Source: Branchiostoma lanceolatum (Eukaryota; Chordata; Leptocardii; Amphioxiformes; Branchiostomatidae). From it: DNA of 64,000 nt. Within the stretch, counting starts at the first letter, position 1. The number at the start of each line of letters is the position of its first letter. The stretch lies in the NCBI RefSeq assembly GCF_035083965.1, contig NC_089739.1:11210001-11274000 (forward strand), written 5' to 3'. The notes under the pieces are model-generated. The model had not been told where the DNA came from, did not search any database, and saw only the letters and a program-made list of their open reading frames with translations. Both the position numbers and the translations under genes were made by a program. Of the stretch, positions 432-56,480 are shown in pieces.

Positions 432-3147
432 ATGTATTTCTCGGACAGATCCACCCCCTTCCTGTGACACATGTTGATGAGTTCTGTCCATTTTGGAGCC
501 CCGCCCATCTCCTGTCTGATGGGGTTGATCCGTTCATTCAGCCTCTTGCAGCATTCAAGTACTCCCTGCATGAATGTAAGCAATTATTGTAACCAAATTA
601 ACAGCTAAAATAAACATTGTATCAGGCAGCATTGAAGAGCTCTCTATAGCAAAGACGCAGTCAAGTGCTTCAGGAGTGACGGTCACTGACTTTCTAGATC
701 AGTGCTAACTGTCTCCTTACCAAAAGGGAGTCAGATGACTGGCAACCGGGAATAGAATAAAGATTGACATTGCAAGGTTAGTCCCCATTAACGCTAATCC
801 ACCGGGTTACATAAATCCGCCACTTTGAAAAGCAGTGGGTTTGAGAGATCTCAGCACCACCCTGTCCCAGGTATGTGCACAGGAGTGTGTTATACTTGGG
901 TAAGTTAGGTTGGAGATCTATTTGGACGTATCTTTTCAGGGTGGTGGAATTATGTACCCAGGTAGAATTGTGTTAATAGAATTCAAGTTAGAAATATTTT
1001 CTGCTATGATTGAAAGTCTATTTCTAAAAAAATTAAAAGATCGGAATCTTTACAGGCGCGTCTTTACAGATGTTACGCATTCATGTGCATATTGCGTGAA
1101 GACTTGAGAAGTACTACAGGTGTGTACCTGACAGTTGAGCTCGCTGGTGACGCTGCCTCCGGTATCCGTACTGTTGGGACTGGTCAGAGAGTTGGTGGAC
1201 ATGACGTGGACCGTCTCCATGGGAACGCCAAGGGTTGCCGCTGCTACCTGCGTCACCTGGAGTCGTGACGTCATAAAGGGTTCTATACAATTGTTCAGTA
1301 TTCTTAGGAACGCAACAATTTCCTGTTTCAACCAAAGAGCAGTACTCGTGCGCCAAAAATCGTTTAATTGTGTTAACAGTCGTAAAGTTGGAACCTCGCA
1401 TGTTGTGATATTGTTTATGCTGACATATGCATTTTTAAATCGTATGACCTGCTTTTGTATCGCAAATCACGATTCTCGCCCCAAGAAGATCATTTGTATA
1501 GATCTTCTGTCTCAGCTCCATCCCACAAAAGCCATATACAGTTCTATAAAATTTACCCTTTTGTATCGGTCCCCTGTCCCATCTTCATCCCCAAAAAGAT
1601 GACAGCTCCTTTTATAAACTTTGCACCTTTATATCGACCCATGTTCCCTCTCCACCCCATAAAGATGACATCTAATTTTATCAACTTTGCACCTTTGTAT
1701 CGACGTCGACCCCCTGTCCCATCTCCACCCCCATATAGCTCATTTTACCAACTTTGCACCTTTGCACCGATCCCTTGTTCCATCTCCACCTCATAAAGCT
1801 CATTCTACAACTTCACACCTTTTGTATCGATCCCGTCCCATGCCACAAAGATGAGAGCTTCTTTTACAAACTTTGCACCTTTGTATCGATCCCTTGTCCC
1901 ATCTCCGTCCCACCATGTGTGATGACCACGGAGCCATCCGAGTGGTAGATCGCCACAAACACCGTGAAGCGGAAGAAGCCGGAGTGGACGGCGAACCGAC
2001 ATGGAACCACCGATAGGCCTCTCTTCTTCCAACGATTTTTCTGTGAAAGGATGTAATGTATTTCTTATCTTGTAAATGGAAGCTGGTTCGAATTCCAGCG
2101 TTCTTTTTCTCTGATTCATATTTTTGAAGTCGTCTGTCTACAGAGCGGTTTCACTTACTTTCCATATCAATAAAGTGGGCAGCCATGTTGGTGTCCTTGA
2201 TTTGCATTTCAATGGACAGTAGCTCAAGCATACACAGCGTTTTTATAGATTTCATCTTCAATTTTATAGGTCTTCTTTGGGTATTCCTATTTGTAAGCTA
2301 TACTTACTTCATAGATGTTATTTTAGAGGGCTGAAAAAGATGCCCAAGCACGATTGAATTCCGATTGACATGTCTACTGAAATGCAAATAGTTGCGTCAG
2401 GCTCCATGTTTGTGCCCCTATGACGTCACGTGAAGGCACTCTATGACGAGTCACTTTCAAAGGTAATCGGCAGAACTAAGTTTTAAGCTTAAAAAAAAAC
2501 TTAAAGGAGACAAGTTGATTCCAGGCCTCACCTTATTGAAGACATCTATCTCCTGCTTTCGTTGTTTCACTTGTGCTGATGTCACAAGAGCTATAGAATA
2601 AAACACATCGTCCAAACGTCAATCTTGGCTTTGCGTTTACTTGAAGAGCTAGCGATGAATTGTTTTTCAAAAATCGGCTGGTTTTATTTGCCTGAAGATG
2701 TAAAATGTATCATAACGATTAACGCAATCTATACATATAATCTGATACCTACAAACCACTTGCGGTATGTTTTGATCAAACAAATCATTATCACACTGTC
2801 ATACTAAGAATGAGTTAAATCTTGGTGTCCCCTTTACAACCAAATTGGAAGAAATCTTATCAACCCACTTAGTTAGAAATATAATGTAGACGTGTTTTTG
2901 TCGCAGATTTTTATGAATATGTTTTAGAAATTTTAAAAAAAAGTTTATAATGGAGAAGAATGATCACGATGATAGACCCTACCGTCCCACAGTTGTGTTA
3001 TGCTGCAGTCTGCCAGAGTGAGTCCAGACAGAGTGGTCTGTCCGTTTTTGAACATGTTGACCCTGCGGATGTCTGTTGGGTCCATGTTCAGAGCCTTCCC
3101 CACGTGTTCCATGATGTGTTCCGTGAAGAAATGAACTGCACTAATAC
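432..3147 (-). CDS. Oxidase exons for the second half of the molybdopterin domain (truncated by window)
   Basis: Exons are 2983-3147, 2532-2590, 1879-2040, 1128-1256 and 432-565. They read through IMEHVGKALNMDPTDIRR, QVKQRKQEIDVFNK, KNRWKKRGLSVVPCRF, DGSVVITHGGTEMGQG (a cofactor-binding motif), VTQVAAATLGVPMETVHV and ELINMCHRKGVDLSEKYM, all collinear with the family. The last exon ends two bases into a codon at donor GTGAGT (431-426), so the gene continues left of the window. The joins across the 29.4-kb intron (TRAP|G) and across 2532-2590 keep frame. Confidence 0.9.
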
Positions 3148-6100
3148 CTAGATTACAAACGTATGATGCGTTGTATTCGTTGGTGTAGTAAACCGTAAGG
3201 CAATTAGAACAAAAAAGACATGTGAAGGCCTTCAGTACATGTACTTTTGTCACAGTTGTACATATGTATTCTTCAAGCAGAGGTTTCGATTGGGGGCTAT
3301 AGATAGAAGTGGCCAGGATTTTTAGCCCCCCACCCTAGATCGAAAGCAGCTTGGAGGATAACTTTTACACAGTCACTCTAACGCTGCAGTCTAGTCATGT
3401 TATTTAAAGTGTTACAGTAAGTGATGATCATGATTAATCACGATGGTTTCTTTGTAAAGTCAAGAAACTAAACAGATATAGTTGAACTTCACAGTCTTCC
3501 AATACACCCTAGCTCTACTAATTATTCGGCTAATGTAAAGTTGGCGGTCTAACAAGTGCTTTTTTCGGTTCGATAACAAGGCTGCACGGCGATGGGTCAA
3601 AAGTCGAGTCGATGTCATTGGCACGACGGCGTTTGGATTTCGACCGCAATTTAGCTGTCGTTAACGACAACACTTACCTTACATCGCAACCGATCATTAC
3701 ACTGCAACCGACATCGTTATCTTTACATATCGCAGCAATCGAGTCTTTACATCGCAATCAAGTCCTTACATCACATTCGAGTCGCTACATCGCAACCGAG
3801 GCCTTGACGCCGCAATCGAGTTCTTAAATCGCAATCGACTTTTTAAAACAGCAACCGAGTCTTTAAAACAGCAGTCGAGTATTTAAAACAACAGTCGAGT
3901 TTTTAAAACAGCAACCGAACCTTTAAAAAGCGGTCGAGGATTAACTCCACGGGAGCCTCATTAGCACCTCGTTCACTTCACACCTTCTTAACACCTAATG
4001 GTTATAGGCCACCGGAGGGCGCAAATAATCGACTAGTTAGGCACATCTCCGTTAATTGGATAGCCTCTACCAGGCTCCGCGAGATGGCTGGGAAAATAGT
4101 AGGAATCGGCAAATAAAGGGAGTTAGCTACGGAGAGAGGGTCCAATCTGGAGAGAGGGTATATCTGCCATCCACCCTCTCTCCAGATTGGACCCTCTCTC
4201 CGTAGCTAACGCCCTTTATTTGCCGATTACTACTATTTTCCCAGCCATCTCGCGGAGCCTGGTAGAGGCTAAATTGGACACATTAGCCTTTTTTTAATGT
4301 TAAAGTAAGAACACAAAGTAGAATCAAACAACTCATGGGACTTAAGTTAGGAGGGGACAGGATGGGGTTAACTATGTTAACATGGATGAAATTTAAACTA
4401 CGTACGTCGGAACTTAACCTGCGTCGGAACTGAAACTTCGTTGGGGCTTTACACTGCGTCGGGCTTTTAACCTGCGAGGATTAACTCCTTATCTGAAACT
4501 GCGTAGAGGATTAACTCAACGGGGACCTCTTTCACACCTACATACAGAGATGTGTATTGCTACCAATGATACACTGGACGTGTCGTGTCTACTAGACTTC
4601 ACAAGGTGACCTGACTTTTGCTTACAAAAGTTAGGTCACCTTGAATATCAACCTATCGGGCCGAGCGGGGGAAGGGCATTTTGTATTTATACAACTTAAA
4701 ACGACTAACCGTTGTCTATCCCAAGCTTTGAAGTATGTTTGCCCGTATCTAGTTACTAAAGTGAGAATCAAGGAAATGCAGCAAGAGACTCATTCAATCA
4801 GAAATAGACCTTTCAATAAATACAAAGCACATCAGATGACATACAAATCTTTGAAACACATATATACACATACATACTGTATATTTCACAACCTCTGTAG
4901 GGATAAACAACGCATCACTTGTTTCCATTTCCACGCATCAACAATAACAACACAAAACTGATTACAGTCGTACTGATTTAATTTATTTGTTCTTAGACTA
5001 TTTAGAAAAACAAACGAAGTTAAACGTACATACAACTGGGAGAAACTGGTAAGACAAAATAAGAAAACAGTTTGTTTATTCATTTATTTATCTATTTATT
5101 TCATCTTGAGACTCCTGGGTAGTCCAAACAGCTAGGATACCTGATTTCCATTGGGCCCAGTATAATATATACACAGACAATAATCACAATACGTGTTACA
5201 GTTGGCAGTAGAACTTCTTTATTTGTATATGGACTCCAGGAAGAATAGTGCATATTGTATATCACTAATGGAGATCTAAATAAAACAAACAAACAAAACG
5301 GAAGCGGACAACATACAATGGGTACAAATAAAATCTGGTGCGTCAAAATCAAAAATCCATAAATCAAAGTTTGATAGAGTCATTTACGACCACATCAAAT
5401 ATATCATTGCTATGGACAACACATTTTGGGAAACTGTAGCAACTAGGAAGACAAGAACATTATGCAATTGAAAAGCAATGGAGTGAGCAAATTTTTGAAG
5501 GAAAAAAACAACAAATTGTTGTGTCTTAATATACAAACACTTTGATGAATAAAGTACATAAGAGTTATGCCAGAGATTGCTTTATGAGGTACTTTTGGGC
5601 CTTTTCCATATTTCTCTAGTACATGTCTTTGTGTTTGTGCACCAATGTTCAGCAGTGATTCATTTATAATTTTTCTGAATGTTTGGCAAATCCTGTCATA
5701 AAGCTTCTGAACCCATTCATTGGAAAGCCTTGATGGGCACAGATTAGAGGAATTGGTATGTCATATGAACATCAGACACTGGAAAATGATCTTGTGATTT
5801 GATTAATAAACAAAACCATTAGCTTGTAGTGAAATATGTGTTCCATTAGAATCTTCCACATAAAATACAGATCTGTCGCTTAATCTTATCTCATTACATT
5901 TAGACTTCAAGCTTCACATTTGCGGCATGCTAAAAGTGTAACTACATTACTGGCAGCACTCTTCTCAACTCCTTCAAAGGTCTGGATTAGATTGGTAGTT
6001 GATAGACTTTTAATCTGCAGTTGGTCTCCTTTGGTTTTCAACTAAAGGCCTGATTATACCTTCTTGTGATTGGAACCTGTAAACAGGAGAATATAACATT

Positions 6101-9100
6101 TCCCCCCTCCAACCTCTACTTGGAAAGTAGTCTTGAGTTAAGTCATGATCTCCCTTACAACCTCTGCTTGAAGAGTAGTCTTCTCAGGCTCACATCCCAA
6201 CAGGAAATCCCTCAGCTTAGGTCCTTCATACCACTGACACTGCAAACACAAGCGTAAAATACATAAATGAATGTGCTTTAAAAAAGGATTAATTTCTTAT
6301 GAATCTAGAATCAGAAATCTTAATTTGCATGTTGATTAAGATACTACTCAGTTCCGTATCTGTATCTGTATCTGTACAGCCCAGTATAACCACCCGTAAG
6401 CGTAACACACCAGCTTCGCAGGTACATGCTGGGCATCAGCTATAGATATACAGTACAGACAGATACATATACAGACAGATACATGTAGTTAAAGGCATAT
6501 AGGCAACCCCAGAAAAAAACAGAAGCAGTTGTTATTTGTAATAGACCACATCTTTATAAATACAAAATCAACCAAGTTGGTCAAATTTATTCACAGGTGA
6601 ACATTAAATGAACCATTCATAATCCAGGAATTGAGTAGTGCCCCTTCATGCAGACCCATGGGGTGTGATGTATGATGGGAATCATCCCTTAAGTACTGGT
6701 TCTTATGGGATAATTGCTGAAGTTCCAGGTCAATTTTTGGGCCAACGCAATAGAAGACTTTAGTTGTTAAAGGGTGGAAATTGATGAATAAATATTCACA
6801 CAAACACTATAACATTATTTTCAACATCAGACTAGATATCCTAAGAGCGCATTTTTGGAAGGGCCTTTTTTTTCAAGTCTTTAAAAGTATGGGTATCAAT
6901 GGTCATGTTTGACTAAGATGAAAGTCTAATTTTGACCCAAATCAAGTGGAGAAAACATTTACCAAGGCTATAATTTGACGAACAAGTATCCAGAAACACA
7001 TTGAAAATGTTATTTTTAATTCAAGTCAAGTCGCCAAGCTGAAGTTTGTCCAATGGTTGTTCACGATATAACAGGTAGCACCTGGTTAGAGCTGTGTACC
7101 TAAACAAATTCTAGGTACAGGTACACAGGTTTAGGTACAGGTCTGGCCCTGAACTACTAATGTCTAAATAATGGTTGATTAAAGGAAAAAAGCAACCGAT
7201 AACAACATAATGTTTAATTCTGCTAGACACGGGCCTACTACATGGCATCTATAATGACCATCACCCTCACCAACAGTCAGCTATGACTCCAGTATTGAAA
7301 TAAAGATGAAAATTTGACTCTGGCATTTTTAAAGCTCAATCTGTGCTACAGGAGTCATGGTGATTCTATCTGTCAAAGTTGCCTTCCACTGATCTGTAAT
7401 CCTCAGGCTTGACCTGATTTAGTACCGTACAGCACAGGTACACCAGGATGGCTACCAGGCAAAACTATAAATATACAATTCATTTCATTTTTGAGGGAAT
7501 TTGAGGGTAAAGGAGCTTTCTTTAGTGCTCGTAGTTTGTAACTCAAACAATTTTTCAGGTAATTTGTTAGTTTGAACCTTTATTTATTCATGAAAAGCTC
7601 AAATAGGCCTGCAGACTGCAATTACAAAACACAATTATTCGCAGGGTCATGATTTTGCCAACTGCAGGAATTTGAAGATTTACTGTTAGTAAGTTACCTA
7701 CACTGGACAGACTGCTGACATCTGAGCTGCTGTCTCTGCCATGGCTCCTCTTCTTCTTCACATGTCCTACACACAAGAAATTCAACAATAATACAGAATT
7801 ATACACATGTACACATATATTCTTCATTCAGTTGTCAATCTATCAATTCAATACTGTACTGTACTCCCAAACAATTGTGAAACATGCTTTACGAAAGGTG
7901 CATTAACCCATTGATCTGAACAAACTGCATGGATGGTGTGCTTCTAAATACAAACCATGCCTTCGTCAGTATTACCTGATGCTGTCAATATCCTCTCCAA
8001 GCCTCTCACGATGAAGACTCTCCTTGTTGGTGGTTCACCCTGGTCACAGACACATGGACGTTATCAAGGTCTCATTCATGAGTTTTTTCGCCCCATAGCT
8101 ATAAAACATGTTTTACATATGGGCGCATTCGTAATGAAGCTATAGGAAATGCACCAAGGTCATTCATTCTCTGTTGAGCACATTTACCCTACATAATGTA
8201 ATAAAATTGGCAACAGTTTCACTACATACAATCTCTTTTTATAGCAATTAGACACTGCACTTAGCTACACCCCCAATAAGGCACTTTCCAGCTGAAAGCG
8301 CACGACCGCATCCCCGACAATGCCTGGCTGTGGACGTTCAACCTCGCGCGCGGCTGCCAAACTTTACCTGCTAATTTCTTCAGTTACAAACAAGCTTTCA
8401 TCAGTTTGATACTTGAGGTCAGTCGGGCTGGCTAAAAGGGAATTTGCCCATCGAGCTAAACACACGTTCATGCAGTCGTGAATTTTTTGGGGTACAGATT
8501 CTTTTAGGGTACCCACTCGGAGTAATACAGGAATGAGACCTTAATGTCCAATGAGAAAGGGTGTACACCAACCATCTATCCGACAGTGCTGTCGCTGTGT
8601 CATTGTCCCCTTATGTCGTTTGGCTGGCAAAAAAAAAATACATTAGCAAAAGAACCAGAGAATCTGCACAGTTGACAAAAAAATTATTCATTACAATGTG
8701 CAATTCGCTTGTACCTGCTAAAAGGGAAAAATCATTCCTCAAAACAATAGAAGCCAAATACCCATGTCTTCTTGGAGGGGGAAAAATCATGAATTAGGAC
8801 AATATAAACCAAAAACCAAAAAAACATTCATGACAATAATAGAAGCAAAGTACCTGTGTCTGCTAAGAGGGAAAAAAATCCTTTATCAGCACATGCAGCC
8901 AAACACGTGTGTAACCGTGTGTCTGCTTTAATACAGTAAATAAATCATTCATCAGTAGAACAGAAATAAAACACCTATGTCTGCTAAGAGGAAGACAATC
9001 ATTCATCAGAATAATAGAAGCCAAACACCTGTGTCTGCTGAGAGGGAAAAATCATTCATCAGAATAATAGAAGCAACACACTTGTATCTGATGAGAGGGA

Positions 9101-12100
9101 AAAAAATCATTCATCAGTATAATAGAAGCCAAACACCTGTGTCTGCTAAGAGGAAAAAATCATTCATCAGAATAATAGAAGCCAAACACCTGTGTCTGCT
9201 GAGAGGGAAAAAGTCATTCATCGGTATAATAGAAGCCAAACACCTGTATCTGCTGAGAGGGAAAAATCATCTATCAGAACAATAGAAGCCAAACACCTGT
9301 ATCTGCTGAGAGGGAAAATCATTCATCAGTATAATAGAAGCCAAACACCTGTGTCTGCTAAGAGGAAAAAATCATTCATCAGAATAATAGAAGCCAAACA
9401 CCTGTATCTGCTGAGAGGGAAAAAGTCATTCATCAGTATAATAGAAGCCAAACACCTGTGTCTGCTGAGAGGGAAAAAATCATTCATCAGTATAATAGAA
9501 GCCAAACACCTGTGTCTGCTGAGAGGGAAAAAGTCATTCATCAGAATAATAGAAGCCACACGCCTGTGTCTGCTGAGAGGGAAAAAGTCATTCATCAGAA
9601 TAATAGAAGCCAAACACCTGTGTCTGCTGAGAGGGAAAAAGTCATTCATCAGAATAATAGAAGCCAAACACCTGTATCTGCTGAGAGGGAAAAAGTCATT
9701 CATCAGTATAATAGAAGCCAAACACCTGTATCTGCTGAGAGGGAAAAATCATTCATCAGTATAATAGAAGCCAAACACCTGTGTCTGCTGAGAGGGAAAA
9801 AGTCATTCATCGGTATAATAGAAGCCAAACACCTGTATCTGCTGAGAGGGAAAAATCATCTATCAGAATAATAGAAGCCAAACACCTGTATCTGCTGAGA
9901 GGGAAAAAGTCATTCATCAGTATAATAGAAGCCAAACACCTGTGTCTGCTGAGAGGGAAAAAGTCATTCATCGGTATAATAGAAGCCAAACACCTGTATC
10001 TGCTGAGAGGGAAAAATCATCTATCAGAATAATAGAAGCCAAACACCTGTATCTGCTGAGAGGGAAAAAGTCATTCATCAGTATAATAGAAGCCAAACAC
10101 CTGTGTCTGCTGAGAGGGAAAAAGTCATTCATCAGAATAATAGAAGCCAAACACCTGTGTCTGCTGAGAGGGAAAAAGTCATTCATCAGAATAATAGAAG
10201 CCAAACACCTGTATCTGCTGAGAGGGAAAAAGTCATTCATCAGTATAATAGAAGCCAAACACCTGTATCTGCTGAGAGGGAAAAATCATTCATCAGTATA
10301 ATAGAAGCCAAACACCTGTGTCTGCTGAGAGGGAAAAAGTCATTCATCGGTATAATAGAAGCCAAACACCTGTATCTGCTGAGAGGGAAAAATCATCTAT
10401 CAGAATAATAGAAGCCAAACACCTGTATCTGCTGAGAGGGAAAAAGTCATTCATCAGTATAATAGAAGCCAAACACCTGTGTCTGCTGAGAGGGAAAAAG
10501 TCATTCATCGGTATAATAGAAGCCAAACACCTGTATCTGCTGAGAGGGAAAAATCATCTATCAGAATAATAGAAGCCAAACACCTGTATCTGCTGAGAGG
10601 GAAAAAGTCATTCATCAGTATAATAGAAGCCAAACACCTGTGTCTGCTGAGAGGGAAAAAGTCATTCATCGGTATAATAGAAGCCAAACACCTGTATCTG
10701 CTGAGAGGGAAAAATCATCTATCAGAATAATAGAAGCCAAACACCTGTATCTGCTGAGAGGGAAAAAGTCATTCATCAGTATAATAGAAGCCAAACACCT
10801 GTGTCTGCTGAGAGGGAAAAAGTCATTCATCAGTATAATAGAAGCCAAATACCTGTATCTGCTGAGAGGGAAAAATCATTTATCAGAACAATAGAAGCCA
10901 AACACCTGTATCTGCTGAGAGGGAAAAAGTCATTCATCAGTATAATAGAAGCCAAACACCTGTATCTGCTGAGAGGGAAAAATCATTTATCAGTATAATA
11001 GAAGCCAAATACCTGTATCTGCTGAGAGGGAAAAATCATTTATCAGAACAATAGAAGCCAAACACCTGTATCTGCTGAGAGGGAAAAAGTCATTCATCAG
11101 TATAAAAGGAGCCAAATACCTGTATCTGCTGAGAGGGAAAAATCATTTATCAGAATAATAGAAGCCAAACACCTGTATGTGCTGAGAGGGAAAAAGTCAT
11201 TCATCAGTATAATAGAAGCCAAATACCTGTATCTGCTGAGAGGGAAAAATCATTTATCAGAACAATAGAAGCCAAACACCTGTATCTGCTGAGAGGGAAA
11301 AAGTCATTCATCAGTATAAAAGGAGCCAAATACCTGTATCTGCTGAGAGGGAAAAATCATTTATCAGAATAATAGAAGCCAAACACCTGTATGTGCTGAG
11401 AGGGAAAAATCATTCATCAGAATAATAGAAGCCAAACACCTGTATCTGCTGAGAGGGAAAAATCATTCATCAGAATAATAGAAGCCAAACACCTGTGTCT
11501 GCTGAGAGGGAAAAAGTCATTCATCAGTATAATAGAAGCCAAACACCTGTATCTGCTGAGAGGGAAAAAGTCTTTCATCAGTATAATAGAAGCCAAACAC
11601 CTGTATCTGCTGAGAGGGAAAAATCATTTATCAGAACAATAGAAGCCAAACACCTGTATCTGCTGAGAGGGAAAAATCATTCATCAGAATAATAGAAGCC
11701 AAACACCTGTGTCTGCTGAGAGGGAAAAAATCATTCATCAGTATAATAGAAGCCAAACAGCTTTGTCAGCTAAGAGGAAAAAAACATTCATTAGAATAAT
11801 AGAAGCCACACACCTGTATCTGCTGAGAGGGAAAAAGTCATTCATCAGTATAATAGAAGCCAAACACCTGTGTCTGCTGAGAGGGAAAAAGTCATTCATC
11901 AGTATAATAGAAGCCAAACACCTGTATCTGCTGAGAGGGAAAAATCATTCATCAGAATAATAGAAGCCAAACACCTGTGTCTGCTGAGAGGGAAAAATCA
12001 TTCATCAGTATAATAGAAGCCAAACACCTGTGTCTGCTGAGAGGGAAAAAGTCATTCATCAGAATAATAGAAGCCAAACACCTGTATCTGCTGAGAGGGA

Positions 12101-15100
12101 AAAATCATTCATCAGAATAATAGAAGCCACACACCTGTGTCTGCTGAGAGGGAAAAAGTCATTCATCGGTATAATAGAAGCCAAACACCTGTATCTGCTG
12201 AGAGGGAAAAATCATCTATCAGAATAATAGAAGCAAAACACTTGTGTCTACTGAGAGGGAAAAAGTCATTTGATGCATCCAAAGACCCATGAAATCAGAA
12301 CAGCCAGAGTGTAGTGAGTTTGAATTGCTAAAGTGCTTAGGAGTACGTATACATAGCATGATACAAGTGAGTAAGAGGTGCTAAGATTGGCCAGGGTGCA
12401 GTCAGAGGTGCTTAGAATGGCTGAGCGCATTGAGTTACAAGTGTTTGGAATGGCTAGAGTGACTTACAGGTGCTTAGAGTGGCTGGAGTGACTTACAGGT
12501 GCTTAGAATGACTGGAGTGACAGGTGCTTAGAGTGACTGGTGTGGATTACAGGTGCCTAGAGTGGCTGGAGTGACTTACATGTGCTAAGAATGGCTGGAG
12601 TGACTTACAGGTGCTTAGAGTGGCTGGAGTGGAGTGCCTTACAGGTGCTTAGAGTGGCTGGAGTGAAGTGACTTATAGATGCTTAGAGTGGCTGGAGTGG
12701 CGTTGTAAAGAAAATGTACATTTTCACTGAACTTTAACTTCACAGAATGGATGTGTGAAGAAATCATTAATAATCACAACAGGTTTTCCATAATCATTAT
12801 AAGTTCACAATACAGAGGTGACAGTGATAACAGTGAACATAAAGTTACAGTGAAAGAAACAAAATCACAGTAGTTTGAAGTAAATCACAAATGATAAACA
12901 GTTTTCAGTAAATCCTGAGAAAGGGGTTCATTGAGGGAAAAGTGTCACTTTACTTAAGGAATGCCATATTCTTAGGCCCAGTTTTGTGTGAGGAAAATGC
13001 TAAGTTGCTGCATTTGAGAATTTCCCATGTTGGTATCCCTTCTGTTGATAGGCAAGCTAGCAGTCTCTTCTCCTGGAGTGGCTCCGCTGCTTTTCCTCTA
13101 GAATGCAATGTAAATGCTAGATAAATGTAAGGAAATGGATAAATCTAACTTCTAGACCAGATTGTAAAAGACACAGGATTCAGCTCACCCGCAGCAAACG
13201 CTATGGTTATGGACCATGTAACTTGTAGAAATCATTCATCAAAAAATCATTCATCAGAATGATAGAAGCCAAATACCTGTATCTGCTCAAAGAAACAAAA
13301 CATTCATCAGAATAATAGAGGCCTAATACCTGTATCTGCTAAAAAAAAAACATTCATCAGAATAATAGAAGCCAAACACCTGTGTCTGCTAAGAGGGAAA
13401 AACTCATTCATCAGAATAATAGAAGCCAGACACCTGTGTCTGCTGAGAGGGAAAATATCATTCATCAGAATAATAGATTAGCCAAATACCTGTATCTGCT
13501 TGGAGGATAAAAAAATCAATATCATAATTACATGTAGCCAAACATATGTTTCTGCTTGGAGGGAAAAAATATCGTTCATCAGAAGAACAATAGAAACTAA
13601 ATACCTGTGTCTGGTAAGAGGGGAAAAAATAATTAATTAGAACATTAGAAACCAAAAACCCATTACTGCTCAGAGTAAAAACATCATTGAACAGAATAAT
13701 AGAAGCCAAACACCTGTGTCTGCTTGGAGGAAAGATCATGATCATTTGTCAGAACATGCAGACAAACACCTACATCTGCTCAAGGGGTAACAAATCATTT
13801 ATTCGATCATGCATCCAAACACCCAAGTAATCAGAACAGCCAGAGTGTAGTGAGTTTGAATAGCTTAAGTGCTTAGAATGGCCAGAGTACATAGGATGCA
13901 AGTGAGTAAGAGGTGCTAAGATTGGCCTGGGTGCAGTCAGAGGTGCTTAGAATGGCTGGGCGCATTGAGTTACAAGTGCTTGGAATGGCTAGAGTGACTT
14001 ACAGGTGCTTAGAGTGGCTGGAGTGACTTACAGGTGCTTAGAATGACTGGAGTGACAGGTGCTTAGAGTGACTGGTGTGGTTTACAGGTGCTTAGAGTGG
14101 TTGGAGCGACTTACAGGTGCTTAGAATGGCTGGAGTGACTTACAGGTGCTTAGAGTGGCTGGAGTGGAGTGACTTACAGGTGTCAAAAGAGTAGAGGCAT
14201 GCCCTGGTGTGCGATGGTCCAAATCCTTCTGTCTGGAGTTGGTGATTTACTACAAATCACCCAGATGGAGGCCTGGCGAAACCCCGTCTCATATCAGCCA
14301 TACAGTGATTAACACCATTCACCCGGAAGGGCTCCCTTGGAAATCAGTTACATAGTCAACTGAAGGGACCACCCTAAAGATTAATGATACAGGTGCTTAA
14401 AGTGACTGGAGTGCAGTGACGTACATGTGCTTAGAGTGGCTGAGGGACTTACATGTGCTTAGAGTGGCTGTATCGACTTACAGGTGCTTACAATGGCTGG
14501 AGTGACTTACAGGTGCTTACAATGGCTGGGGTGACTTACAGGTGCTTAGAGTGGCTGATGTGATTTACATGTGCTTAGACTGCTGGAGTGTAGGGACTTA
14601 CAGGTGCTTAGAATGGCTTGAGTGCAGTGAGTTGGAAGTGCTCAGTATGGTAAGAGTGCAGTTACTGTAATTCACTTTATCTTCACGGTAGCTTAATTTC
14701 AGGGTGTAAGGAAAATGGACATTTTCACTGAACTTTAACTTTACAGAACGGACATGTGAAGAAATCATTAATAATCACAACAGGTTTTCCATAATTCCAA
14801 AGTTCACAATACAGAGGTGACAGTGATAACAGTGAACATAAAGTTACAGTGAAAGAAACAAAATTACAGTAGTTTTAAGTTTACTACAAATGATAAAACG
14901 TCCTGAGAAAGGGGTTCATTGAGGGAAAAGTGTCACTTAACTTAAGGAATGCCATATTCTTGGGCCCAGTCTTGTGTCAGGAAAATGCTAAGTTGCTGCA
15001 TTTGAGAATTTCCCATGTTGGTATCCCTTCTGTTGATAGGCAAGCTAGCAGTCTCTTCTCCTGGAGTGGCTCCGCTGCTTTTCCTCTAGAATGCAATGTA

Positions 15101-18100: not shown

Positions 18101-21100
18101 AACAGTCCCTTTATAGCAATATAGGAAGGGTGATGGATTGCAGTATTTGCTGTCAAATGTGGTTTCTCTAGTTTGTCTGCTGAACAGAAACACAACACAA
18201 TGGGTGGTCATGTCAGTGGGTGTGAAAACTGTCCTAACTCCAGATGCAAGGTTTCCTTTTGTTTGGTAAGGTTTATGACTCTGATACTTGACACAAGCGT
18301 TGACTTGTTTGGCTGTTTTCTGTATTTTCCCTACAAAATTTCTCATCAACAACAGGGCATTAACCTTACATTAACCAACGGTTCACATCAAAGATAACAA
18401 ACAAGTGGCTGTGAACAAAATTACTCAGAATATACAACAACAACAACAGAATAGAGACTCTGAGATGCTCATTTTGTTCTTGTCAAGATCCCCCACAGCC
18501 TCTACTAGTTTAGCACAAGGAGGAAGATTACTTTATACGCCTTTTTTCAACATGGCCAGGAGGTTTCAGAGAATAGTATCTGAAGAGCCATGACATACAT
18601 TTCTTTATTGATTCTTTTTTTCCTTCAGATATCTTTTCAAAGCAGGGTATTTACAAGCTGAGCCATCAACTTGTTAGATAAAAACTAATAGTATATCTTT
18701 GTAGCTGATATCGTAGATGGGACCATTATTTTGGCGCAACACAACAACCTCAAAATATGGGGTTTTATCATACATCTGAATGCGGTTTTGATCATACTGT
18801 GCATTTTGAAATATCAGTTTTGTACATACCTGTAAACAGCTGTCACAGAAGTCTGGCTGTGAGTCTAGAACATTCCAACCGTTCCGTTTCAACCCCACAA
18901 ATTATCTGGAGATTATTATTAAAGTGGCGCTTGTGACCTGTACAAGACAGAAGATGTAAAGTTACACATTCAGGTTCTCCCTAAACAAAAACTTCAAGGT
19001 TTGGAACAGGTTTTATATCCGGCTAAGATAATGCATGCTGTCTGTGTGATGTGAGGTCTAACGGACAAATATCTCTTTGTTTGTCTGTTTTATGACCTAC
19101 TAGTATGCAAGGCAGCAGTTGTATCATCAGTACTATGATTCAAAAATCCTTGCTTTGGTCTAATTTTCGTCTCATAATGCGACATGGCGCTAGCCGCAGC
19201 GACTTAGCCTCTACCAGGCTCCGCGGATGGCTGGGAAAATAGTAGAAATCGGCCAAATAGAGTCAAAAGTATGCCAAGGGTACTCCGCTATATACTGGGA
19301 AGCTCCGTGGGTCTCCTATTGAGCTTCCCATGGCATACTTTTCACTCTATTTGCCGATTTCTACTATTTTCCCAGCGATCCGCGGAGCCTGGTAGAGGCT
19401 AAGCGGCGACTGTTGGAGGGCTTCTTCTAGTAGAGTAGAGTAGAGTAGAGTCTTGCAGTCTTATACATTAGCAGTAAAAAAAAGCCCCCCAATAGTCGCC
19501 GCGGCTATCATGTCGCCATGTTTATTTGACTTGAATAACAGTTCACAGTTACAGTTAGTTACCCCTCAGCGATACCCCTCCTCTAGGGGTTGTTAGAGGG
19601 TATCACAAAGAAAGAAAGAAAGAAGATCAAAGAAAGTTAAGAGCAAACATAAACATAAACTTACCGTCAGATAGGAGCTGTGGCGATACAACGTGCATTC
19701 CCCTGTCGCGTCGGTTCCTAACATGCCACGACATGTGCTTGTGTGCATGTTTGTGTGACGAACGGTTTCACACCTCGCGCCAGTGGACATGAAAGGTCGG
19801 GGGTCACCCTCGTTCCCAGGACTCCACGTAACCAGGGAGCTGGAGTAACCTCAGTTTAGCGTCAGATATTAGACATATGGTCTGAATAGAGTATATAGAG
19901 TCTTCATGGGGGATCTTGACGACGCTTTAACATTAAATTCACCATGATGGAAACATTTAACTCAGTATTAAATGGTAATAAAAATCTGTGAGAGTTTCGA
20001 GATCTTTCGAGAACGAGTTCATCGGATTGTTCCATGTATTCATGGGGAGTCAATCAAAACTAATCAGCAAAGAACCTGATCCGGACGCTAAAGTTGTTGC
20101 CTTGTAATATTTTGGCACTCTCCAAGCAGAAGTTAATGGGGGGAAGATTGTTACCTTCTTGTCTTGTACCCCAAAGGGGGCTGCGGACGCAAAATGGGGC
20201 ATATGAAAAAAGGTATAAGTTATAATCTTCCCCACCAACATCTGCTTGGAAAGGAAGTTTTTGGCTATCTGCCTAGCCGTGGCGACTAACGAAGGGAGTT
20301 TTTGCTTGATATTACATATACTATCCCTTATATGTAATATCAAGCAAAAACTCCCTTCGTTAGTCGCCACGGCTAGCTATCTGCCCTGCTTTCGAGACCT
20401 AACGTAGCACAAGGTACCACTCCAGTTATGGTGCGCTACCAATTGTGGTCCACTTTGGGTCTTGTCGATGTGTATTTTGCTAAAGGTAGTTTTTATAAGC
20501 AATAAAGAACGTCATAAATATGATCCTTAGTCATGCCTCTCCTTATACAAAGCAATGAATTAGGTTTACGCCCAGCGACAAAACAGAATAAACTCCTGAA
20601 CCTGTAACAGCAAGTTACCAAGAACCGTCGCGGTGGCGCAGTCCTGGGTTCAAATCCGGGGTCCCCTGATTTGTCTCGTTGACGTTGTGCCCTTGGGAAA
20701 GGCACTTTACACGACTTTCCCCACTTTACACGACTTTCCCCACTCAGGTGAAAATTAGTACCCTAAGTTAAGCCCCGGTTACACATAGCCGAACATTAGC
20801 CTCCGTTGCAGTCCTTCCCACTAGCAATTTTTTAGCGATTTTTTAAGCGATTTTATTGGGGGGGGGGGGGGGGGGGGGCTCACAGCGGTAACAGGATCCC
20901 AAGCAGATACGGGGACTCAAGCAGATACGCCCCCCCCCAATAAAATGGCAAAAAAAATCGCTAGAAATCGCTAGTGGGAAGGACTGCAACGGAGGCTAGC
21001 CGAACATGGCCTCCCGACTCTCTCCCGACCATGGTTAGAGTTATTCGGTGGCTAGGTGGGCTGGTGTTCAGCTGAGTCGGCTGGTGTTCGGCTGGTGTTC

Positions 21101-24100
21101 GGCTGAGTCGGCTGGTGTTCGGCTGCGCCAGCCGAATGTTTTGAAAATTTCAAAACATTCGGCTCTGCAGCTGGACGGAGCCGGAGGGTCTGGAATGGGT
21201 TGGCGGTGTTCGGCACGGTCGGCTAGTGTTCGGCTGGTCACGGTTCGGGAGTAATTCAGCAGTAAAATTGGAATCTTAACCACGCTATAACTACTGCTGA
21301 ATAACTCTCAACAAGGTCGTAGATAAATTTCTGCTAACTCATTCCCAACCAAACTGACTACTACCAGAACATGGGCGAATCACCCCCGACCTTCACACGA
21401 CCATGAATAGAGACGAAAGCTAAAAGCCTTTTTTAAGCCGAACGTGATCCGAATTTGATGTTAACAACATAGAAGAATGGATTATTTTGATTAAAAAGGA
21501 AAATCACCCCTCTTTTGAAAGTCGCTGAATATGTCTATTTCAATTCGTGAGAGGGTTAGCAACCGGCCGGGAGGTAGTCAGGAAAGATTCGGCTAGAGGT
21601 CGGGTTGGTTGGGAGTACGGGTTAGAAAGCCTTCGGGGCTCAGTCTGTTACTGGTTAGGAGATGGTTGCTCGGCGTATGTTCGGCTCAAGTTCGGCGCCA
21701 AAAATAGGCGTGGCCTAAAAACTGGTCAGACAACTCCCGAACTACCGCCGACCTGGGTCGGCTAGCGTTCGGGAGCCATGTTCGGCTATGTGTAATGCTT
21801 GGGTCACATTTCCTATCCGGGGCCCGGCCGGGCAGTCTTTGAGCGCGTTAATTATGATATAAAAGACAACGAAAGGCACAAAACGTACCAAAAATTATTT
21901 GAGTGCATATCTTGTGCATATTCATTGAGATCCACTTTGATTTTTTGCTTCCGCAAACAGCCCGGCCAGGCCCCGGCTGGGAAATGTGAACCTAGCATAA
22001 ACCGGGGCTTCAAGCTTCTATTAAAGGACGTCCCTCGGATAGGACGTTAAATGGAGGTCCCGTGTTTGAGGATTTCTTTGAGGAGAGCTGACAAAGTAGC
22101 TGACATTAAATCTTTCTTTCACATTCAAGCTATGGCGAGTCGAGATTTGAAAGTCTTTAAGCCCTTCTCTCACTGAGCTGCGGCACTGTGGCGGTAGCGT
22201 GCGAATGGCTGCCGCCGCACTGCCGTGCACAAACCTCGGCGTACCGTCCTAGTGACGTCCCAGTGCCGTTCCAGTGCCGGTCCACTACCGCCAGCGTGCC
22301 AGTTAAAATAGCGATTTTTTTTTTTAAATTTAAAAAAAGAACCGCAAATGGCAAAGTGCCGCGCGCACGCCGAAATTAAAGCTTGCCGGGAGCTTACCGG
22401 GAGCTCACCGCGACCACAAGTGTGTAAAAAGTGATATGTCAGTTTCAAGGTAATAAGTATATTCTATAACATGTTACCTTTGTTGCACCAAGTGTCATAA
22501 GTGAAAGTCCATTTATCCTTTGAAATCAATTTGTGATGCACTTGTATGACTTTACATTGTATTTTGATTCATTGACAGCACTGCGATTTCTGATTAATTG
22601 ACTACCATCAAACTACAATCGGTCTATCTCCCTAGCTATTGATCTGTTTAAGAGTTTGGTTCAACCCATTTTACTGCGTTGTAGTGAGGTTGAGGATTGT
22701 AGCTGTAAATGTTCTCATCTTTTCATTGGAATATTGCTTAATCCCACTGAAAATTAGATCTCTGCATTGTACATTTATTCCAGTACGGAAGTTGATAGAA
22801 TGCGAGTTAGTCGCTTAAGAAAGAAATCAGACCCCTCGTCTACCTGTACTCGACCTGATCTTTTGCCATTCAAAAAAATACAGCGATAAACTGAACTTGA
22901 TATACCAGTAAGACACTCAGTGACTGTATCGCAAATTGTACTCAATGTCTCGCCGTAAGGGATGAATAAGGAGAATTCCTATTGATCGTTGACAGTCAAA
23001 CACAGTTGATTAGATACTCTCGCTAAGATTGTATAAGTTACCTACTGACAGGATTATTTTTTAAAAAACACGACACTTCAGTCGAAGAAGAACATTACTG
23101 GGTTATTCACGTTCAGGATATACTATGTAGACATGTTTGACTTAACCCCGCAGTTAATGCCAACCGTTTTGGAAATACATTTAAAGAACGTCTGGAAGAC
23201 ACGATTCTCCCTGGCTGGAGGGAACCACTTAGAAATATCAGTGGGCTCTCACTGGGATGCGGCACCGCGGTGGCACTGCGGCGGCACTACGGCGGCACTG
23301 CGGCGGCAGCTCATGACGGCACCGTCGCGAATTTTTCACCAATTTTCATTTGCACTCTCACTGACGTGCGGCGCATTTGAAGCCCAGATGAGCAAGTTAT
23401 TGAATTTATTGAATGAACTTTATTGCTAGACATAAACGTACATGGTACAATGTAGGGTAGTAAACAATCATTACATCATCATCTCACAGCAATAATCACA
23501 TTCATCACATTCAAGCCTTTGATACTGTACATAGAGGAAATATGTTGAAGATTAAGGCATATGGTATTCCTGATCAACTGATGGAAGCCATAGCCAGCAT
23601 GTACCAGGGCACAAAGACAAAAGTCATCTCCCCTGATGGTGAAACTGAACTCTTTGACTTGTATGCAGGGGTGCTACAGGGGGACACACTAGCTCCATAT
23701 CAGGCTGTTTATGATTGTTGTTGATCTGCAATGGATGTCACTTGAATACAGAAGAACAACGTCCAGACTTTGCATGATGTACAAAATGACTAATAAACCT
23801 GTAGACGTACAGACTGATAAGTATCTAATGGCAGCTCAGAAGAGGACTTGAAATCGCCATGCTTTTAATTACCAGAGTTATCAGCCAAGGATTGATGTGT
23901 TAAAAAATTCGCATTTTTCGAGAACCATATTAGAATGGAACTCGTTGTCATCAAGTACTGTAGGAGCATCTTCACTAAGTAGCTTTAAAGAACGGTTGCA
24001 GTCTGATATGCAAAGACTATGTGTAACAGACCGTTCGGTGTAACATAACCAGCTGCTGTCGCGCCGCGTGCCTGCGAAGCTGGTGTGTTGCGCCTAATGG

Positions 24101-30100: not shown

Positions 30101-33100
30101 ATGTTGATGCGCAACTCATACGCACTTGAATATACGCACAAGTGTGACAGGGCCCTAACGGTGCTCACTGCGCTCGCTGCGCGCTCTCAAGTCGCTCTCG
30201 TGCTGATTGTTTTACATGTAGTATGTTTGGTATAGTATGTTTGTTATAGTATGTTTGTGCTTCCTTCTTCCTTTCCTTCCGGATGTTTGTTGTCAGCATT
30301 AGTCAATTGATTGTAATGATATTTGATATGTGGGTCGGTGTTTGGAATACGAAGGTCAATGTTGATTTTAGGCCCCCTGGTGTGTGAGCTTGGTACTGCA
30401 TCACAACTTTCTTTTTTTAAATCATTTGACTTGAACATGCTGTGGTCTTTATTTTTTGGTGGCAGATAGCTTGTGATGTAACGAAGAAGTGCTGTACGTT
30501 TGGACCCCCTAGCGGCTTGCTCTGGAACCGCAGTCAGAATCTTTCAAGGAGGATTACTGAACAAAGGATTAAACGATTTCCATGATATTTAGTATGCAGG
30601 TAGCTTAGACAGAAATGTACATAATGAAGTAAAGTATGCAAATAGGGACTTAATTTGCATAACTAATGCGGAAAATCTGTATTTACAGTGTTATCCATTA
30701 TTGGACTCAGGCATGTTGTGGCGAACCTGTTAGTTGCGTAACTGGGTCAAATATTCCCCAGGGGCCCGACAGCTAGTGGTCAAACCACAAAGGGATATAC
30801 AACCAAACCTGTATACTTGTTTTATTATGAGGATAGCTTAAGTGTTACTTGATATAATGAAATGGTAATTAGAATCAAATTTGCATAATGAATGGCACAA
30901 TTTTATAAACCCATTGCATTCAATTTTAAGATGGTTAAAAATGCAATAATAAATAAAGGAACATTAATAAAAGTTATTAAAATGAATACCAAATGTGTAT
31001 AATTGATGAGAAAATGCTGTAATTCCATATTGGTAGATAACCGGAATTTCACACTTGTGGCATTTGGGAGTTACGATGACGGTGAACATGGTTGAATACA
31101 AATTATTCAAATGAGGGCATAGTTTGCAATATATATGTATATTTCATGGAGATATGAGGCCTCCGTTTTGATATGTGATGTCCAGTAAACCTGTAGAAGT
31201 GTGCGATAACAGTTCATCTCAAACGCGTTGATTCACTATGGCTGCGTTGAGTGCCCATGACTCAGCGCCATATGCCAACTAGTCAATTATTCGTGCGCTC
31301 CAATAGCCAATACATATCCTAGTTTTGAATGGGTAAAAATTGTGTGAAGTATTATTGCAAAGTTACTGATGAACTACTGGTAAAATACGAGTATTCTATA
31401 TAGCTATTTGGGGTAAGATGTATGTATCCTGCATAAACCCCATTGTCTGAGTAATATAACCACTAATATGACGGGAAGATTTTATGTTAACTCCTTAAGA
31501 ACATGCAGGTGAGGTGTTAATGTGTGTTGTTTCTGATGACGCCCCACAAATTATTCCAATCATCCATGGGCGTGCCAGGTGCAGATGATAATAACAATGT
31601 CAGTGTTAATCTGTGATGAAAGTTTAGGAAATTTAGTACAGTCAAACCTTGTCGGGCAACAACCTGGCACAGGGAACCACCTCCAGTCACAAGCCATAAC
31701 AAACAGTTCATCCATTTTTTTCATAGCCCGTCCTCAGCAATCTCCTGTCCTCAGCAACCATTTCCCCCAGTCCTTTGAGTGGTTTGACTCAAGTTTGCGT
31801 TCATGAGATTAAATTAGATCTCATGAGAAACATAAACAGATCAGGATAATGTTTCCAATCAACGGAGACCAATGCCATATGCCTAACTAGTCGATTATTT
31901 GCGCCCTCCGGTGGCCTATAACCATTAGGTGTTAAGAAGGTGTGAAGTGAACGAGGTGCTAATGAGGCTCCCGTGGAGTTAATCCTCGACCGCTTTTTAA
32001 AGGTTCGGTTGCTGTTTTAAAAACTCGACTGTTGTTTTAAATACTCGACTGCTGTTTTAAAGACTCGGTTGCTGTTTTAAAAAGTCGATTGCGATTTAAG
32101 AACTCGATTGCGGCGTCAAGGCCTCGGTTGCGATGTAGCGACTCGAATGTGATGTAAGGACTCGATTGCGATGTAAAGACTCGATTGCTGCGATATGTAA
32201 AGATAACGATGTCGGTTGCAGTGTAATGATCGGTTGCGATGTAAGGTAAGTGTTGTCGTTAACGACAGCTAAATTGCGGTCGAAATCCAAACGCCGTCGT
32301 GCCAATGACATCGACTCGACTTTTGACCCATCGCCGTGCAGCCTTGTTATCGAACCGAAAAAAGCACTTGTTAGACCGCCAACTTTACATTAGCCAATTA
32401 TTCAATAAATTAACAAGTCAGGCAATTTTAATGAACAGTGCCATCAATTCATCTACTTGCCCGTGAGGTCGTAAACGTATATAATATTATGTAAAGTTCG
32501 GAGTAGATCAGTCATCTGACTACTGTCGTTTTATATATTCTATTGTTACTGAAATAAGGTGAACAGTAGAAGCAGAAGTCATACCTGGAGCCCTTGTCAT
32601 TGTTGTTGGAACAGTGTGAGTTTTACATGTTTGTCCGGTGAACTGCCAATTCGGACAGTAGTACACTGAAATAAAGGGCAGAATGTTTAAACCATTAACG
32701 AAGAATTTCAAACGTTTGATGATTTCAAACTCTACACCTACCGTATATCTTAATGGACATAGTTATTCTTAAAAACATCCTTCGTTATTATGTACTCATA
32801 GTTACCATTGTCAGCAAATGCCGGTAGAATAGGGATGAAAGAACACTGAGCGGAACTGCCGTTATCTTCGTACAGATTGTACACCACTGCTAGCAGCCTT
32901 CCCTCATCGTCAAAACCAACCTGTAAGTATAAGACTTAGTCAATATCCTTACAACTGATTTATCTACAGACACATATGAACTAAACGTGCTTGTCAAATA
33001 AAATCATCATAACTCTCAGCCAATCACAGTGCCTTATTCTGGAAATAAGCAAGTTCATTGGTCAGATATGGTCTTATTGTAAGATATAATAGTCAGCTTA

Positions 33101-52839: not shown

Positions 52840-53455
52840 AGGCGTTGCCAAAATGGAAGTCACGCAGATTTGGCGTTAAAGTTATTTGCGGACACAGCAA
52901 CTTTAACAGGCCAAAGATCACAAAGTCCTGCGTAGTCAGACAAAGTCTTGATTACAGACAGGTTGATATCACGGGATAACAAATATTCACTAGTTCAAAG
53001 GTAGGCTCAACGTCGACATTCAGTAAAACTCCGCTATGTCATCATTCTGTGACCAAGCAACTGGGGTTTGGGCGAGTGAGTTTGGCACATGATTAAGACT
53101 TTAGACGTTTCCGCGAAGCCCACAGCTGCCTGCGTAACTGAAAACATAACCTCATCGGCGAAGGTTATTACCTTTCCAACGCTTCTTACATCAAGGTCAA
53201 AACGATGAAGATAAGGCGAAAATATCGAAAAATGTATTGTTGCTAAGGAGGCGTTGCCAAAAAAAAAGGTCATACAGCTTTGGCGTGAAAGTTATTTGCG
53301 GACACAGTACCTTAAACAGCAAATATTGACGAGATCATGGGTGGACCAAAAGTCGACATTCAGTTAAACTCCGCTATGTAATCATACCGTGACCAAGCAA
53401 CTGGGGTTTGGGTGAGTGAGTATGCCACATGATTATGAAGACGTTTGCGCGATGC
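52840..53455. repeat. Left arm of the large inverted repeat flanking the peptide gene
   Basis: Inverted copy of about 55850-56480. It contains about 1.5 units of a ~410-bp repeat (GCGGACACAG..., CAACTGGGGTTTGGG..., AAGGTTATTACCTTTCCAAC). A further fragment lies at 52480-52560. Confidence 0.85.
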
Positions 53456-55849: not shown

Positions 55850-56480
55850 TTTAGTCTTGTGACTTTTGGTCCACCCATGAACTAGTCAATATTTGTTGTA
55901 CCGTGATATCAACCTGTCTGTAATCAATACTTTATCTGACCACGTACGTAGGCCTTTGTGATCTTTGGCCTGTTAAAGTTACTGTGTCTGCAAATAACTT
56001 TAACCCCAAAGCTACATGACATCCATTTTGGCAACGCCTCCTTAGCAACAATACATTTTTCGATATTTTCGCCTTATTACGATCTTCATCGTTTTGACCT
56101 TGATGTAAGAAGCGTTAGAAAGGTAATAACCTTCGCCGAGAAGGTTATGTTTTCAGTTACACCGGCAGCTGTGGGCTTCGCACAAACGTCTAAAGTCTTT
56201 ATCATGTGCCAAATTCACTCACCCAACCCCCAGTTGGTAATTAGTCACGGCACGATTACATAGCGGAGTTTTACTGAATGTCGGCTTTAGCCTACCCATG
56301 AACTAGTCAATATTTGTTGTACCGTGATAACCACGTACCTGTCTGTAATTAAGACTTTGTCTGACCACGTAGGCCTTTGTGAACTTTGGAATGTTAAAGT
56401 TACTGTGTCCGCAAATAACTTTAACGCCAAAGTTGCATGACATCCTATTTTGGCAACAATACTTTTTTCGATATTTACAT
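55850..56480. repeat. Right arm of the large inverted repeat flanking the peptide gene
   Basis: Inverted relative of 52840-53455, also with about 1.5 units: CATGAACTAGTCAATATTTG begins units at 55876 and 56298. Frames conserved between arms reflect homology, not a gene, because they are interrupted differently in each unit. Confidence 0.85.

Follow-up and report, generated by a model that had tools for sequence, protein, structure and literature searches.

Amphioxus genes are known to carry minisatellites, termed "mirages", in which tandem repeats run across an exon-intron border. The sections of PMC3087553 dealing with globin genes describe such arrays in BflGb6 and BflGb9 and cite Adh3 and two other loci as further mirages. 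According to these sections, AG/GT is kept in many, though not all, of the globin units, mirage haplotypes vary in unit number, and RT-PCR suggested that splicing is undisturbed; intron gain from mirages was also proposed. A comparable arrangement appears in the part of PMC3902484 concerned with lancelet PGBD5, where imperfect repeats of 60 bp and 108 bp lie over splice sites and a predicted exon is situated within the repeats.

The present analysis concerns an array overlapping the 3' end of a coding exon in a 64-kb stretch of amphioxus DNA (hereafter the window). A preliminary description of this locus had mentioned mirage minisatellites as described in amphioxus, and they have indeed been published (PMC3087553, PMC3902484, as far as the relevant sections go). 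For this particular locus, the single library searched yielded no literature. The array is real, non-random and derived from the exon, and it very likely represents an old minisatellite of the mirage type, with decoy donors that do no harm or carry at most a slight cost. The array is probably neutral.

The host gene and its surroundings

Judged from its conceptual translation, the gene with the array is a molybdenum hydroxylase of the aldehyde oxidase/xanthine dehydrogenase (AO/XDH) type, encoded on the minus strand. The translation of exon C (KNRWKKRGLSVVPCRFAVHSGFFRFTVFVAIYHSDGSVVITHGGTEMGQGIDTK, with TEMGQGIDTK as its C-terminal residues) matches Pfam family MoCoBD_2 with an E value of 4.3e-11, and its PDB matches are aldehyde and xanthine oxidases, the top one being 7px0 (E 2.3e-12), which we take to be an insect-type enzyme. 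The oxidase identity proposed in the preliminary description is thus borne out. A six-frame Pfam scan in which stops were read as X placed MoCoBD_1 and MoCoBD_2 in the interval 1-15 kb (E up to 0.01), while Fer2_2, FAD_binding_5, CO_deh_flav_C, Ald_Xan_dh_C and MoCoBD_1 were found on the minus strand between 15 and 58.6 kb (E up to 0.001). All three domains of an AO/XDH gene (molybdopterin-binding, FAD and 2Fe-2S) are therefore present on the minus strand, and no Pfam families other than those of AO/XDH were detected in the six frames of the window. When exons B-E are joined, Aldehyde oxidase 1 (7px0) leads the PDB matches and xanthine dehydrogenases come close behind, an order of matches rather than a tree.

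The gene model comprises 17 donors and 16 acceptors, placed by eye and with the help of two bacterial xanthine dehydrogenases (L016 and L017, used as the bacterial references, with loci L001-L015 left out). The model is partial: some exons of the FAD region and the first exon are missing from it, and the 3' end of the gene lies beyond the left edge of the window. Coordinates of the features around the array are collected in Table 1.

Table 1. Features of the array and of the neighboring exons, in positions of the window
Feature	Coordinates	Strand	Description and basis
Exon B, precedes exon C	2532..2590	-	Exon edges and joined-exon alignment
Exon C	1879..2040	-	54 codons with phase-0 edges; translation (KNRWKKRG...THGGTEMGQGIDTK), Pfam, PDB
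Exon D, follows exon C	1128..1256	-	43 codons, VTQVAAATLG..., phase 0
Intron with array, between exons C and D	1257..1878	-	622 nt; exon edges
U1, exonic part	1879..1914	-	36 nt, 12 codons; 20-mers; nhmmer to 1917, Tandem Repeats Finder to 1906
U1, intronic part	1856..1878	-	Inferred true donor AAG/GTGCAA at 1879/1878; protein join 1879/1256
U2	1797..1855	-	Donor-like AAG/GTGTGA after 1819; exon-like part 8 nt short; nhmmer E 5.2e-12
U3	1737..1796	-	Donor-like AAG/GTGCAA after 1760; nhmmer E 3.6e-16
U4	1670..1736	-	Donor-like AAG/GTGCAA after 1693; 6-nt insertion; nhmmer E 1.4e-13
U5	1604..1669	-	Donor-like AAG/GTGCAA after 1627; nhmmer E 1.2e-17
U6	1538..1603	-	Donor moved, AGG/GTAAAT after 1557; nhmmer E 3.2e-16
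U7	about 1491..1537	-	Decayed, donor lost; nhmmer 1530-1491, E 0.0011; 0/500 shuffles as good
In-frame TAA, fifth codon past the end of exon C	1864..1866	-	Common to the extensions to all 5 downstream donors

The window contains a number of other repeats. Two copies of a 527-nt sequence, 99.2% identical, lie in inverted orientation at 3520-4046 and 31877-32402, with the 8 bases AATTATTC flanking both outer sides of the pair (3520-3527 and 32396-32403). The interval 3528-32395 resembles a terminal-inverted-repeat element of about 28.9 kb, located within the intron between the exons ending at 32585 and starting at 3147; no transposon protein was found in the six frames of the window at the Pfam thresholds used. 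Subterminal tandem repeats of 19-20 bp occupy 3735-3918 and 31996-32188 within the two inverted repeats. Just inside the left one is a near-perfect palindrome of 211 nt (4061-4271, 93.8% self-complementarity), to which a second palindrome at 19203-19403 is related. Also within the putative element, a 54-bp unit is repeated in tandem about 62 times (8942-12270); a diverged second block of this array (13241-13823) and interleaved 29-bp arrays (12406-12699 and 13911-14666) lie there too. Outside it, an inverted pair of about 490 nt with 86.7% identity (52844-53319 and 55970-56457) perhaps marks a smaller mobile element. A tRNA-Thr called by ARAGORN at 21051-21138 is probably false; it coincides with an 11/31-bp tandem repeat (21059-21125) and is absent from the Rfam results. 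An Rfam tRNA match at positions 1-55, truncated by the left edge of the window, scores 32.3 bits against a gathering threshold of 29.

Structure and exonic descent of the repeat

The last 36 nt of exon C, together with about 23 nt of the adjoining intron, are repeated as six intronic units down to approximately position 1491, giving seven units in minus-strand order when the exon end is included (about 1914 to 1491). Tandem Repeats Finder reported the array as three overlapping intervals (1545-1704, 1675-1830 and 1675-1906) with a period of 60-67, entering the exon by 28 nt. The borders of U1-U7 were drawn by hand; the units measure 59-71 bp (59-67 bp for the intronic ones) and are 58-85% identical in pairwise comparisons. 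This anatomy upholds most of the preliminary description, which held that the terminal codons of the exon and its donor recur about six times in the intron (U2-U7), that the true exon is simply the first unit (U1), and that the repeated codons belong to the TEMGQG motif. It had also stated that in most units GTG comes directly after an exon-like end, and AAG/GTG is in register in four of the six intronic units (U2-U5); in U6 the GT is displaced by two bases, and U7 has no donor. The near-identity ascribed to the competing sites holds for the donor 9-mer, which is the same in U1, U3, U4 and U5 (four of seven units), but not for the units as a whole. As raw percentages, the exon-derived part is 75% identical among U2-U6 and the intron-derived part 67%. 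A candidate eighth unit near 1492-1452 is not supported: it falls outside the nhmmer matches, and 20 of 500 shuffles were equally good.

Homology between exon and repeat was supported by several searches. An nhmmer profile built from U2-U6 alone recovered the exon end with the adjacent intron (1917-1856) at an E value of 9.5e-15; its seven matches were the exon end, U7 and the five source units. No further copy of the unit was found elsewhere in the window at E values up to 10, and a dispersed family or transposon was accordingly set aside as the nature of the repeat. Smith-Waterman alignment with lax gap costs did not discriminate (exon versus array 130, shuffles up to 149), and stricter costs were used instead; whole exon C then scored 44 against the array (1485-1878), a value reached by none of 1000 dinucleotide shuffles, the best of which scored 28. 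Ungapped 20-mers make the homology certain for the 12 codons at 1914-1879 (0/200 shuffles at each of five steps). By eye, a GTCATC common to the exon and to the unit starts had suggested a unit reaching deeper into the exon; the similarity is not significant upstream of 1914, where 13 of 200 shuffles were equally good for the 20-mer at 1930-1911 and 81 of 200 for that at 1926-1907. The donor edge of exon C is duplicated (score 70, 0/300 shuffles) and stands alone in this among the 33 edges of the gene that were compared; the other 32 have no nearby copies, with scores of 14-20 that 22 to 284 of 300 shuffles equaled. Targets in this comparison extended up to 800 nt, some of them running past the next exon or being cut at the window edge, and the exons of the FAD region were partly absent.

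The motif encoded by the exonic unit is common to mammalian, insect-type and bacterial oxidases. Since it is conserved so widely, the repeat must have grown from the exon, not the exon from the repeat. Scored against the exon by codon position, the intronic copies show 16/68 differences at the first, 19/70 at the second and 11/69 at the third. The lack of an excess at third positions argues that these copies are free of coding constraint and drift as non-coding DNA.

Donor choice and the predicted fate of extended transcripts

Joining exon C to exon D (1879 to 1256) retains phase 0. In the comparison of joined exons B-E with PDB oxidases (26 sequences matched), the junction is gapless in all three alignments listed, and the exon C and exon D matches of two bacterial XdhB proteins abut at the same residue. 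Among the matches listed, coverage of the joined peptide against bacterial proteins is up to 100%, with approximately 41% identity. Because the protein is continuous across this junction, the first donor appears to be the one used; for a working enzyme, we infer, the first unit must supply the donor.

Donor strength was calculated as pairing with the 5' end of U1 snRNA. By this measure the true donor, AAG/GTGCAA, is weak (-5.3 kcal/mol, rank 14 of the 17 donors placed). The sites in U3, U4 and U5 equal it, that in U2 pairs at -5.2 with one extra consensus match, and that in U6 at -6.2. Competition among the donors, as predicted from this pairing, is plausible on paper. U1 pairing gives the true site no edge over its copies, so donor strength leaves any exclusive use of the first donor unexplained; if that donor is the sole one used, the choice must lie with exon context or position. 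Runs of three or more G residues are concentrated in the array (14 in 1485-1878 versus 1 in 1257-1484); such runs downstream of weak donors can strengthen them.

The preliminary description had also held that each copy would add coding sequence if used, and on this point it fails. Splicing at the donors of U2-U6 would extend the exon by 60, 119, 186, 252 and 322 nt, respectively. In all five, the reading frame is first interrupted at the fifth added codon, by the TAA in GTG CAA AGT TTG TAA (1866-1864). This stop precedes every downstream donor and leaves four extra residues. No copy adds useful coding sequence. Stops upstream of later exon junctions usually trigger nonsense-mediated decay and, with exons D and E lying downstream of the TAA, extended transcripts are expected to be targets of this pathway.

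One could imagine that alternative donors serve to lengthen the protein, use of a downstream unit adding residues beside the cofactor site. The donor-like 9-mers in U1-U5 would suit such a role, as would the spacing of U2, U4 and U5, which lie at multiples of 3 nt (60, 186 and 252). This spacing could be read as a hint of frame-keeping; given five donors, it is not remarkable. The shared TAA contradicts the idea for this allele, and we give it virtually no credence.

The copies might instead act as a regulatory decoy array, in which donors compete for U1 snRNP, nonsense-mediated decay removes the share of transcripts retaining the TAA, and enzyme dose depends on how many units there are. Such a scheme would draw on the predicted U1 snRNA pairing of U3-U6, equal to or slightly better than that of the weak true donor, on the stop being identical in all five extensions, and on the exon junctions downstream (those of D and E), the usual setting for stop-triggered decay. 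The copies, however, bear no sign of selection, with the register lost in U6, the donor lost in U7 and unit identity at 58-85%, and published mirages are reported, in the relevant passages of PMC3087553 and PMC3902484, as not interfering with regular splicing. We regard this reading as unlikely. Its fullest form, in which decoy donors divert transcripts to decay and the length of an exon-born minisatellite works as a dial on the dose of a detoxifying oxidase, perhaps individual by individual or cell by cell, seems very unlikely.

Two further possibilities bear on how the array came about. Under the Rogers model, the intron itself would have come from an exonic AGGT segment duplicated in tandem, and the array would be what remains of that event. 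Each kept unit has an AAG/GTG proto-splice site, and a route from mirage to new intron has been put forward in PMC3087553, in the sections cited above. The model places both intron borders in copies of one segment, but here the acceptor of exon D has no copy of it (257 of 300 shuffles were equally good) and about 230 nt of unrelated intron separate the array from exon D; this origin is very unlikely. An assembly artefact, with haplotypes collapsed or stacked at the exon edge, comes to mind because misassembly of mirage loci has occurred earlier (legend to an additional file of PMC3087553). Divergence between the units nevertheless amounts to 15-42% plus several indels, more than allelic copies or stacked reads would show, making an artefact highly improbable.

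What we favor is a neutral mirage-type minisatellite with the following history. The repeat would have begun where a coding exon ends, with the tandem duplication, presumably through slippage or unequal exchange, of a segment comprising 36 nt or more of exon and some 23 nt of intron, and would have expanded to six further copies, all within the intron. The exonic copy would be held fixed by the conserved TEMGQG cofactor-site motif that it encodes, whereas the intronic copies drift, as their divergence pattern shows. Splicing would proceed from the first donor, as the continuity of the protein suggests, and the remaining copies would stand by as decoys, with donors predicted to be about as strong as the first. 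Splicing at one of them brings in a stop five codons past the exon end and would, in all likelihood, yield no working enzyme. The array would then be of the same kind as the mirages of amphioxus, in advanced decay.

Comparison with described mirages

On anatomical grounds, the oxidase array is probably an additional mirage minisatellite. Its unit runs across the exon-intron border, and the true exon edge is itself one unit; a splice signal recurs in many units; and the unit length falls within the published span of 10-160 bp (as cited in PMC3087553). As described in the globin sections of that paper, the BflGb6 and BflGb9 mirages are similarly built of intronic tandem copies of a border, with splice signals in many units and the authentic exon as one terminal unit; in BflGb9 it is likewise the 3' exon border that is duplicated. 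The globin units are longer (150-160 bp in BflGb6 and 157 bp in BflGb9), and those of BflGb6 are more alike (81-100% identity versus 58-85% here). Normal splicing is deduced from RT-PCR in the globin genes and from protein continuity in the oxidase gene.

Border-spanning repeats also make up the mirage at Adh3, present in both B. floridae and B. lanceolatum (Canestro et al. 2002, cited by PMC3087553 and PMC3902484), with a unit length cited as 10-72 bp; length and somatic instability have been reported for it, according to these citations, whereas the oxidase array is known from one allele. PGBD5, as presented in the relevant part of PMC3902484, shares imperfect tandem repeats that overlap splice sites and a 60-bp unit; it is a different gene, and its copy number varies between two assemblies, as against the one allele here. 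Because of repeats of this sort, gene prediction may wrongly add an exon, and the PGBD5 precedent (PMC3902484) calls for caution on the part of gene predictors at the oxidase locus as well. In the troponin C mirage (Yuasa et al. 1998, as cited in PMC3902484), splice sites are likewise duplicated, reportedly without giving rise to aberrant mRNAs; its repeats are cited as perfect, in contrast to the imperfect ones of the oxidase array.

The locus offers a natural experiment on splice-site choice, with one weak donor 9-mer present four times (U1, U3, U4 and U5) in its native, exon-like context. To judge by the continuity of the protein, the first of these four identical donors would be the only one to give a working enzyme. 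With this array, a molybdenum hydroxylase gene would join the short list of those with mirages (globins, Adh, TnC, PGBD5 and the two further loci cited in PMC3087553), among which it would illustrate the old state of a mirage.
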